A stretch of 64,000 nt of DNA from an uncultured Metabacillus sp. (GTDB lineage: Bacteria > Bacillota > Bacilli > Bacillales > Bacillaceae): the NCBI RefSeq assembly GCF_947503125.1, contig NZ_CANNCR010000001.1, positions 124,001 to 188,000 on the forward strand, in the 5' to 3' direction. The notes beneath the pieces are model-generated. The model worked only from the letters and a program-made list of their open reading frames with translations. It made no database searches and was not told where the DNA came from. Below are positions 9,892-12,502 of this stretch, one piece after another (the first letter of the stretch is position 1; every line of letters begins with the position of its first letter). A program made the translations under genes and the position numbers.

Positions 9892-10248
9892 TTATAGAGC
9901 TTTTTGTAATGCCTCAGAAACTTGCTTTAATACAGTTTTGCTAGTGTTAACAACACTTGCTGGGAAGTTTTCTCCTTCACCATACTCAACACCGTGTGGG
10001 TAGTAATATCTACCTAAAAGTGGTGTAATTAATTTGATGACTGCATGACGTCCGCCGACATCACCTTCTACAGCGTACCCTTGGATACGCAGATAATAAA
10101 TCTCCCCTTTTGTTTCGATTTTGCGATCATATGTAACACGCTCATAATCCCATTGACCCGCTAAAACAAGGCCATGATCTTCCATGATTTCAGTTAGACG
10201 AGATAAATCAAGTGTTACACCTTCAATACCTGTACCTTCCATTCTCAT
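9892..10248 (-). CDS. YugN-like family protein
   Basis: A 118-residue soluble protein of the YugN-like family (function unknown, found in Bacillus and relatives). Family-typical blocks are GTGIEGVTLDLSRL, VLAGQWDYERVTYDRK and RYYYPHGVEYGEGENFP. The position downstream of ctaG and before the CAP-domain gene matches B. subtilis ylbA, which I believe is also YugN-like, but I do not assign the symbol. The ATG at 10248 has AGGAGGG 8 bases upstream. It is transcribed alone, opposite to both neighbours. Confidence 0.85.
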   Translation of the reverse strand: MRMEGTGIEGVTLDLSRLTEIMEDHGLVLAGQWDYERVTYDRKIETKGEIYYLRIQGYAVEGDVGGRHAVIKLITPLLGRYYYPHGVEYGEGENFPASVVNTSKTVLKQVSEALQKAL

Positions 10249-10532
10249 ATGTATGTCCCTCCTAAAGCCTTTTCACCATAATATATTATAGCTTAATTAT
10301 CTTAAAAAGTTAAAGTGAAAATATTGTTTGCTTAGCTTAATCATGTACCATACCTTACATTGTGTAAACGCATAACAAAAAATGCACCTTAAAGAATCAA
10401 GCATCTTTTTTAATAATAGTACGAATGAATGCAACATGCAATGCAAAGTTATCAACTTTAATGGCAGGGCTTATTTTTATAGAGTTAAAACTTCCTTTAT
10501 GGGTAAAACTATTCGATGAAGGAGGGTGTACA

Positions 10533-11155
10533 ATGACTAAAACAATACAACGTTTAGTGATGCTTTTTTATTAATTGGGCTATTTTCATTCCCGCAAAAC
10601 GTTTTTGGCCAAACGACTACTCATACTGTTAGAAGCGGGGATACTCTATGGCTTATTTCACAGCGTTATCAGGTTGGCTTATCAGAAATTATAAATGCCA
10701 ATCCACAGTTTAAAAATCCTAATTTAATTTATCCGGGTCAAAAGGTGAACATTCCACAAATAAGTGGAACAAAATCAATTGAACAGCAGGTGATCTCACT
10801 AACAAATGCTGAAAGACAGAAGGCGGGATTACCTCCATTAAGAGGAAATTGGGAATTATCACGAGTAGCTCGCTATAAATCTGTTGATATGAGAGACCGA
10901 AATTACTTCAGTCATACTTCACCTACATATGGGTCGCCATTTACGATGATGAAAAACTTTGGGATCTCTTACAGAACAGCAGCAGAAAATATTGCTGCTG
11001 GGCAGCGAACTCCTGAGGCAGTCGTAAAAGCGTGGATGCAGAGCCCGGGGCATCGTGCCAATATATTGAAGCGTGATGTTACAGAAATTGGTGTTGGGTA
11101 TGCAAAAGGCGGTTCATATGGTCACTATTGGACACAGATGTTTATCGGAAGGTAA
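10533..11155 (+). pseudogene. LysM-CAP secreted protein, frameshifted in the signal peptide
   Basis: Reading from the ATG at 10533 (GGAGGG upstream) gives MTKTIQRLVMLFY and then a stop at 10572. The +2 frame continues the signal peptide as LLIGLFSFPQNVFG, followed by a LysM domain (HTVRSGDTLWLISQRYQVG to YPGQKVNIP) and a C-terminal CAP/SCP domain with the family motifs YFSHTSPTYG, AAENIAAGQ and HRANIL. One added T in the T6 run at 10564-10569 would rejoin the frames. The downstream part is open, with a GTG at 10745, but from there it would lack both signal peptide and LysM domain. It is a recent pseudogene, a slippage-prone gene or a sequencing error in the T run. The intact protein would be secreted and bind the wall. 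Confidence 0.85.
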
Positions 11156-11215: not shown

Positions 11216-11443
11216 TCCACCAGATCATAAATATTTAGTATAATATAATAAGAAACCCATATTAAGATGGAGAACTTACGAATTCTTTATATTAGAAAAA
11301 TCGATAAACATATACTATACTACGTTTAACAGACTATTTGGTCGGGAACAATAGTATTAATATATACACTACAAATAACTAGTATATCAATCGTCACATT
11401 TCATATAATGATAGAAAGCAGAGCTGTAAAGGAGGGGATTAAA

Positions 11444-12502
11444 CTGCGTATTTTGATCCGAACGGTCGTCATTTTTTTAATCATCTTTTTAAGTTACACC
11501 CTATTTATCTATTTTGGCCAATATACTCCATCTGAGCAACATGAGGAAGAAAATGTTCAGATTTCGAATGAAGAATTATTAAAGGAAGAGTCTGAGAAAA
11601 AAGTTCAAACAGCTAAGCTGCCTGATGAGGGGATATTGTCCTTAATGAATAAATCCTCAGAAGAAATCACAGCTCTTTTTGGAGAACCAGACCGGATTGA
11701 CCCTTCTGCGTATGATTATGATTGGTGGATTTATCAAGTGTCTGATAAGCAATACTTGCAAATCGGAATATTAGGTCAGCGGGTTGTAACTGTATATGCC
11801 ATCGGTAGTGATGTCAACGCAGAGCCATTTAAAATTGGACAACCTGTCCAGGAAGTATTCAAAATTGCACCTGTTTCCCCAAGTATTTCATTAGAATATG
11901 AAGGAAATTCATACCGATTTGAATTTTCTGAGGAAGATATGAATACAAGACCTACTGTTAAGCTAGAAGATGTTTATGTGCAATTATATATTGATAAGTT
12001 TGATGGAATATTATCAAGTATACGTGTGTTGGATGCCGAAACATTCATAAAGCAGCGTTCATATGAAGTAACATATCGCGGAGAACTCATTGAAGCTGAC
12101 GAAATTAGTGAAGCAAAATGGGAAAAAATAGAGAATGGGGCAGAACAACAAATTTTGTCGATAACAAATGTCATTCGTGCCCGTCATAATGTGCCCGCTG
12201 TTAAGTGGGACGATTCGACATCAGAGGTTGCCTTTTTACACAGTCAGGATATGAAGGTTAATGATTATTTCTCACATGAATCCCCAACTGAAGGAACATT
12301 AGTTGACCGGCTTGCCGATCTAGATGTGATATATGAAATGGCTGGTGAAAATATTGCCGCACAATATGTAGATGGGATAGCAGCTTCAGAGGGCTGGTTG
12401 AATAGCAAGGGACACCGTGAAACATTATTAAATGAAGAATTTACTCATTTAGGTGTAGGTGTTGATGGTTTGTATTACACGCAAAATTTTATTAAAAAAT
12501 GA
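11444..12502 (+). CDS. ylbC: CAP-domain protein YlbC, membrane anchored
   Basis: The 352-residue protein has an N-terminal membrane anchor (LIRTVVIFLIIFLSYTLFIYFG), a CAP-associated N-terminal domain at about residues 70-205 and a C-terminal CAP/SCP domain with SQDMKVNDYFSHESPTEG, AGENIAAQY and SKGHRETLLN. This layout matches YlbC of Bacillus. The longest frame starts at an ATG at 11408 with no ribosome site. AGGAGG lies exactly 8 bases before a CTG at 11444, so a CTG start is the better fit; a TTG at 11453 is the other choice. Its biochemical role is not established; CAP domains in bacteria are usually extracellular. Confidence 0.85.
   Translation: MRILIRTVVIFLIIFLSYTLFIYFGQYTPSEQHEEENVQISNEELLKEESEKKVQTAKLPDEGILSLMNKSSEEITALFGEPDRIDPSAYDYDWWIYQVSDKQYLQIGILGQRVVTVYAIGSDVNAEPFKIGQPVQEVFKIAPVSPSISLEYEGNSYRFEFSEEDMNTRPTVKLEDVYVQLYIDKFDGILSSIRVLDAETFIKQRSYEVTYRGELIEADEISEAKWEKIENGAEQQILSITNVIRARHNVPAVKWDDSTSEVAFLHSQDMKVNDYFSHESPTEGTLVDRLADLDVIYEMAGENIAAQYVDGIAASEGWLNSKGHRETLLNEEFTHLGVGVDGLYYTQNFIKK

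Follow-up and report, generated by a model that had tools for sequence, protein, structure and literature searches.

The LysM-CAP gene at 10533-11155 (forward strand) of the window, by which we mean the whole 64,000-nucleotide stretch analysed here (bases 124001-188000 of contig 1 of G000, the draft genome of a soil bacterium, 5.44 Mb in 244 contigs), is probably a pseudogene that arose through a genuine and very recent loss-of-function frameshift. Most likely, this is ordinary gene decay and not a new kind of switch. In this mechanism, a single base lost from codons 10-12 would end translation after 13 residues, and the LysM-CAP frame, left without a usable start, would, as we infer from the observed frames, yield no secreted protein. 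Such a loss would survive because the gene is dispensable, having gone or been broken several times in the genus. The lineage also appears to be shedding CAP genes, as it carries a second broken CAP gene and had already lost the other LysM-CAP paralogue. Against a genuine loss it has to be said that a lone one-base lesion in a homopolymer, with the rest of the gene intact, also fits an error or a reversible variant. In the following, G000 denotes the source genome, and G001, G003, G007, G012, G016, G017 and similar handles denote other Metabacillus genomes.

Re-reading the sequence returned the layout that a sequence-only reading of the window had given, with an ATG at 10533, a T run at 10564-10569 and the end of the gene at 11155. 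A ribosome-binding site (AGGAGGG, 10520-10526, forward strand), which is aligned in the orthologues, precedes the ATG. From there, the first piece (10533-10574, forward strand) comprises 13 signal-peptide codons encoding MTKTIQRLVMLFY and stops at the TAA at 10572-10574. The run of six T (forward strand) is the place where, in the orthologue alignment, the frame leaves that of the intact relatives. The remaining gene (10568-11155, forward strand) lies in another frame, open from 10541 to 11155, and contains the end of the signal peptide, the LysM domain and the CAP domain. Thus the signal peptide is indeed split over two frames, and a start codon and the signal peptide are not found together in one frame. 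An alternative start for the LysM-CAP frame was considered and rejected. Scanned from 10541, this frame contains no ATG, GTG or TTG upstream of GTG 10745, which is its first ordinary start and sits 3' of the LysM domain, and non-standard codons are, judged by eye, too distant from the ribosome-binding site.

The part downstream of the break encodes both domains. Residues 28-72 of the open frame (10622-10756, forward strand) match the LysM domain (Pfam PF01476) with 58.6 bits, and residues 86-201 (10796-11143, forward strand) match the CAP domain (Pfam PF00188) with 86 bits, both exceeding the curated cut-offs of 20.9 and 21.1 bits, respectively. The NCBIfam profiles spore_YkwD (TIGR02909) and spore_safA (TIGR02899) scored 200.4 bits (cut-off 171) and 78.6 bits (cut-off 67.85), and these matches group the gene with YkwD and with LysM proteins of the SafA type, both from spore formers. 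His125, Glu149, His171 and Glu182, which we take to be the tetrad of the CAP cavity, are present and are invariant in a five-row alignment, in agreement with the earlier statement that the open downstream part keeps its CAP motifs. The product would probably be a secreted, wall-binding, spore-associated LysM-CAP protein. No paper on this LysM-CAP gene was found in the open-licence literature, and little function has so far been assigned to the CAP proteins of spore formers.

Upstream of the gene, a GGNNANAHTD element (10500-10511, forward strand; GGTAAAACTA at about 10502-10511) lies 31 nt 5' of the ATG. This motif occurs within the 75 nt that precede the chosen start at 26 of 26 loci (seven from Metabacillus, the others being 19 of the 22 named loci that share the synteny), where 2.3 are expected from single-base shuffling, a statistic that ignores the kinship of the loci. 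In several genera, the box has a GGT(A/C/G)AAACTA-like form and stands 30-42 nt before the start. It resembles what is presumably the -10 box of the forespore sigma-F type, and no -35 box fitting sigma-F was recognisable upstream of it. The box is thus a possible forespore promoter. In the available parts of two papers, a G upstream of the -10 is described as a mark of sigma-F promoters (PMC3789822), and B. subtilis ylbC as part of a sigma-F operon whose ylbC mutant is slow to germinate (PMC6568419). Because of the family matches, this box and the sigma-F operon of B. subtilis ylbC, the LysM-CAP protein would probably be made in the forespore and bound to the wall.

The gene is flanked upstream by an ORF (9892-10248, reverse strand, from the ORF list) that we take to be YugN-like and that served as locus marker. 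The downstream neighbour is an intact gene with CAP_assoc_N and CAP domains in Pfam (11444-12502, forward strand), presumably ylbC, judged by the name given to it earlier and by synteny. From the comparison of start codons, ylbC probably starts at CTG 11444, behind AAGGAGGGG at 11429-11437. The codon at this place in 21 Metabacillus genomes is CTG in 13, TTG in three, ATG in two, ATT in two and ATA in one; in further genomes of the family it is CTG in eight of eight (L202-L209) and TTG in L210. In-frame ATGs upstream of the codon at the CTG position occur in some of the compared genomes, and the pattern was not seen in 20 more distant named loci. In the window, the ATG at 11408 shares bases with a promoter-like CATATAAT that is present in 20 of 21 genomes. 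As a separate observation, G014 (L185) and G004 (L201) carry between the YugN-like gene and ylbC, instead of the LysM-CAP gene, an ORF of 138-140 aa, which we take to resemble the CBS-domain protein YlbB.

The comparison with orthologues is central to the interpretation of the break. At the DNA level, the gene is held by seven of the 21 genomes of the genus (G000, G016, G012, G001, G017, G003 and G007). The copies of G016, G012, G001 and G017, four of the seven, are intact, with the signal peptide read through in one frame, and relative to all four the window is one base short, just as the sequence-only reading had proposed. The nearest relative, G016, shows 91% DNA identity over the gene region. 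The frame in the window is therefore broken where orthologues are intact, as is typical for a pseudogene. A conserved frame transition, as would mark a programmed frameshift, is not observed, since four of the seven copies are intact and two others are broken at different places, in the LysM domain (G003) and in the CAP domain (G007). All of the best 80 named homologues are intact, which speaks against a genuine loss, although the list is sorted by match quality and thus biased towards intact genes.

In the case of G007, one base is lost outside any long run, where by eye a conserved SPGHR becomes SQGHR. The LysM-CAP orthologue is the only two-frame gene among 93 compared in this genome (four were flagged, and the other three look like start differences), and this break arose separately in a further species. 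In the case of G003, the assembly is rich in errors: a comparison with 17 genes from G017 and 21 genes from G007 showed that four or more genes are divided between two frames within 18 kb (L146, contig 1, 4509000-4527000). Besides the LysM-CAP gene, they include genes of 621 aa (by its position presumably ctaD), 158 aa and 407 aa. Therefore, the broken copy of G003 was not counted as a loss. In the reverse comparisons, G017 had two genes divided between two frames and G016 had one; occasional frame breaks occur in other genomes too. On contig 2 of G016, a 508-aa gene is in two frames and is whole in G000 (contig 1, 28428-29954).

Regarding the age of the break, the dN/dS ratio against G016 is 0.048. 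When changes were polarised by G012 and G001, five nonsynonymous and 15 synonymous changes fell on the G000 side and three and 10 on the G016 side, and the neutral share of the G000 lineage since its split from G016 is at most about 14-18%. Neither a stop nor a second lesion was found in the 195 codons downstream of the break. Thus, the further lesions or relaxed constraint that may accompany a pseudogene are not seen here. As there is no relaxation at a dN/dS of about 0.05, the break is either very recent or not real, and the gene appears to have been in use until very recently.

Loss of the gene is widespread in the genus. In 14 of the 21 Metabacillus genomes, no LysM-CAP gene is present upstream of ylbC, and a tblastn search of these 14 for remnants (E up to 5) returned either no match or short ones of the kind expected by chance, the best one covering 34 residues in G006 (E = 0.008). 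The seven carriers cluster into two groups when placed on the ylbC tree. Among the 80 named loci, 22 have the gene between the YugN-like gene and ylbC, including Fredinandcohnia and Anoxybacillus; for the other 58, ylbC was not seen in the 3' range covered, and these may be copies located elsewhere. The simplest explanation is that the gene was lost repeatedly, because two gains at one place are less simple and the YugN-ylbC site is shared with other genera. The simplest history contains three to six losses, depending on the forks, as counted by eye on a single-gene ylbC tree. Overall, the gene is best read as dispensable and repeatedly lost. It had been suggested earlier that the neighbouring ylbC, as a second CAP gene, could make the loss tolerable. 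This argument is weak, as YlbC gives no LysM match and the ylbC mutant of B. subtilis is itself reported to be defective in germination (PMC6568419). Dispensability is better supported by the 14 genomes without the gene than by redundancy with ylbC.

Further insight can be gained from the other CAP genes of G000, which has four CAP matches, two of them in broken genes. Sequence comparison showed that the second broken one, which encodes a lipoprotein with a linker and a CAP domain (L151, 3994-4994, reverse strand, contig 8 of G000), has an in-frame stop in the Gln-rich linker and, immediately 5' of the CAP domain, a deletion of 13 bases. Its counterpart in G016 is whole (328 aa), and the best match has an open frame of 284-421 aa in 20 of 20 other Metabacillus genomes, although 14 of these matches are confined to the side of the query that holds the CAP domain. 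These lesions are not explained by a homopolymer miscall; they sit in a repetitive linker, where an assembly error could occur. With this reservation, the second broken CAP gene favours a genuine loss over a miscall in the LysM-CAP gene. In G000, YlbC is intact, as is a YkwD-like protein of 247 aa. A LysM-CAP paralogue is listed in 18 of the 21 genomes searched and was not found in G000, G016 and G010, and no intact LysM-CAP gene was found in G000. A general decay of sporulation was considered and rejected: a GerA-family search of G000 gave 10 matches, and the five genes among the matches listed are all open, without stops. These five genes thus give no hint of such a decay, which weighs against a genuine loss.

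The sequence-only reading had left three options side by side, namely a fresh pseudogene, a switch at the homopolymer and a sequencing error. Here, the fresh pseudogene is best supported, by the recent constraint, the losses in the genus, the break in G007 and the second broken CAP gene. An error of sequencing or assembly within the T run, with the gene of the organism intact, is unlikely, but it keeps some weight: the difference is one base in a homopolymer, purifying selection was strong right up to the present sequence, G000 is a draft of 244 contigs, and G003 shows that assemblies of the genome set can contain such faults. However, when G016 was compared to G000 over 142 genes (90 aa or longer) in 164 kb, the LysM-CAP gene was the only clear frame break (four were flagged: this gene, one end cut, a 169-aa ORF and a 99-aa ORF). 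In the window alone, where ORFs down to 70 aa were taken, seven of 69 were flagged: the LysM-CAP gene, four short ORFs (71-80 aa) and two that are cut by an end. Within their coding sequence, 140 neighbouring genes contain 355 runs of at least six, 100 of them of at least seven. A general homopolymer fault is therefore disfavoured, because the longer runs would be hit first and further genes would be broken, as in G003, and a general assembly error in G000 was rejected given the single clear break. A one-off sequencing fault at the T6 run is possible. The lesions of the second broken CAP gene, which lie outside homopolymers, also speak against an error.

A reversible on/off switch, whereby slippage in the tract silences the gene in part of the population, is quite unlikely. 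A precedent exists in Listeria inlA, where, according to the available part of the source, a 5' tract of six versus seven bases reverts at about 5.5e-7 (PMC2831843). As the six-base inlA tract can revert, reversion is conceivable for any such tract in G000. Moreover, the run of G016 is one base longer at the same place, and constraint is still visible. However, the T6 run is short and unremarkable in G000: the 140 neighbouring genes contain 81 T6 and 169 A6 runs, and 31 of them have a run of at least six within the first 60 nt. In the alignment, G012, G001 and G017 show no run of this kind at the place of the T6 run, and 48 of the best 80 homologues have no run of at least six in the 84 nt before LysM, the rest having it at varying places. 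The tract is thus not conserved in place among orthologues, contrary to what phase variation would lead one to expect, and nothing in these alignments appears to single it out among such tracts. With six bases, it also falls short of the seven or more that the GeneTack survey required of a tract close to the break (PMC3711429), and no two-state population was seen in a comparison of one genome per species. The switch is therefore without positive support, the run being short, not conserved in place and of a kind common nearby.

A wider reading, on which we place little probability, is that the lineage inactivates its CAP proteins as a set, the LysM-CAP paralogue earlier and the LysM-CAP and lipoprotein-CAP genes recently, with YlbC and one YkwD-like protein retained. 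If this were true and selected, CAP proteins of the spore or wall would be a liability in some niche, e.g. because phages or predators could use them as a handle, and the LysM-CAP gene could still return by way of its short tract. Decoding across the break by ribosomal or polymerase slippage, yielding some full-length protein, is hardly credible: the run lies exactly at the frame change and constraint persists, but the break is not conserved, intact relatives lack it, and the codons of the frame (CTT TTT TAT TAA) do not form a standard slippery heptamer.

Returning to the recent pseudogene as the preferred explanation, the case illustrates that an ordinary loss can look like a switch when judged from one draft genome, and that relatives tell the two apart. 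A natural strain in which two of the four CAP genes are broken, together with repeated loss of one of them across the genus, also offers a comparative handle on the role of these genes in germination.

In comparison with known systems, the gene resembles the YkwD family (TIGR02909) in its score above the cut-off, its SafA-type LysM domain and its complete CAP domain. It differs in having a frame without a start codon, so that by the usual rules the protein could not be made. With the poly(A) tract of Listeria inlA it shares a short A/T tract near the 5' end that is one base short, and an early stop, after 8 residues in inlA and after 13 here; inlA differs in its second allele and measured reversion, whereas the tract of the window is not conserved and is known from one genome only. 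The closest likeness in the break itself is to the singletons of the GeneTack survey, i.e. genes whose frame break is not common to their orthologues, which the available part of that paper ascribes to indel mutation or sequencing error (PMC3711429). To such a singleton, the present case adds an independent break in a second species and the absence of the gene from 14 of 21 genomes, and both give weight to a real loss.
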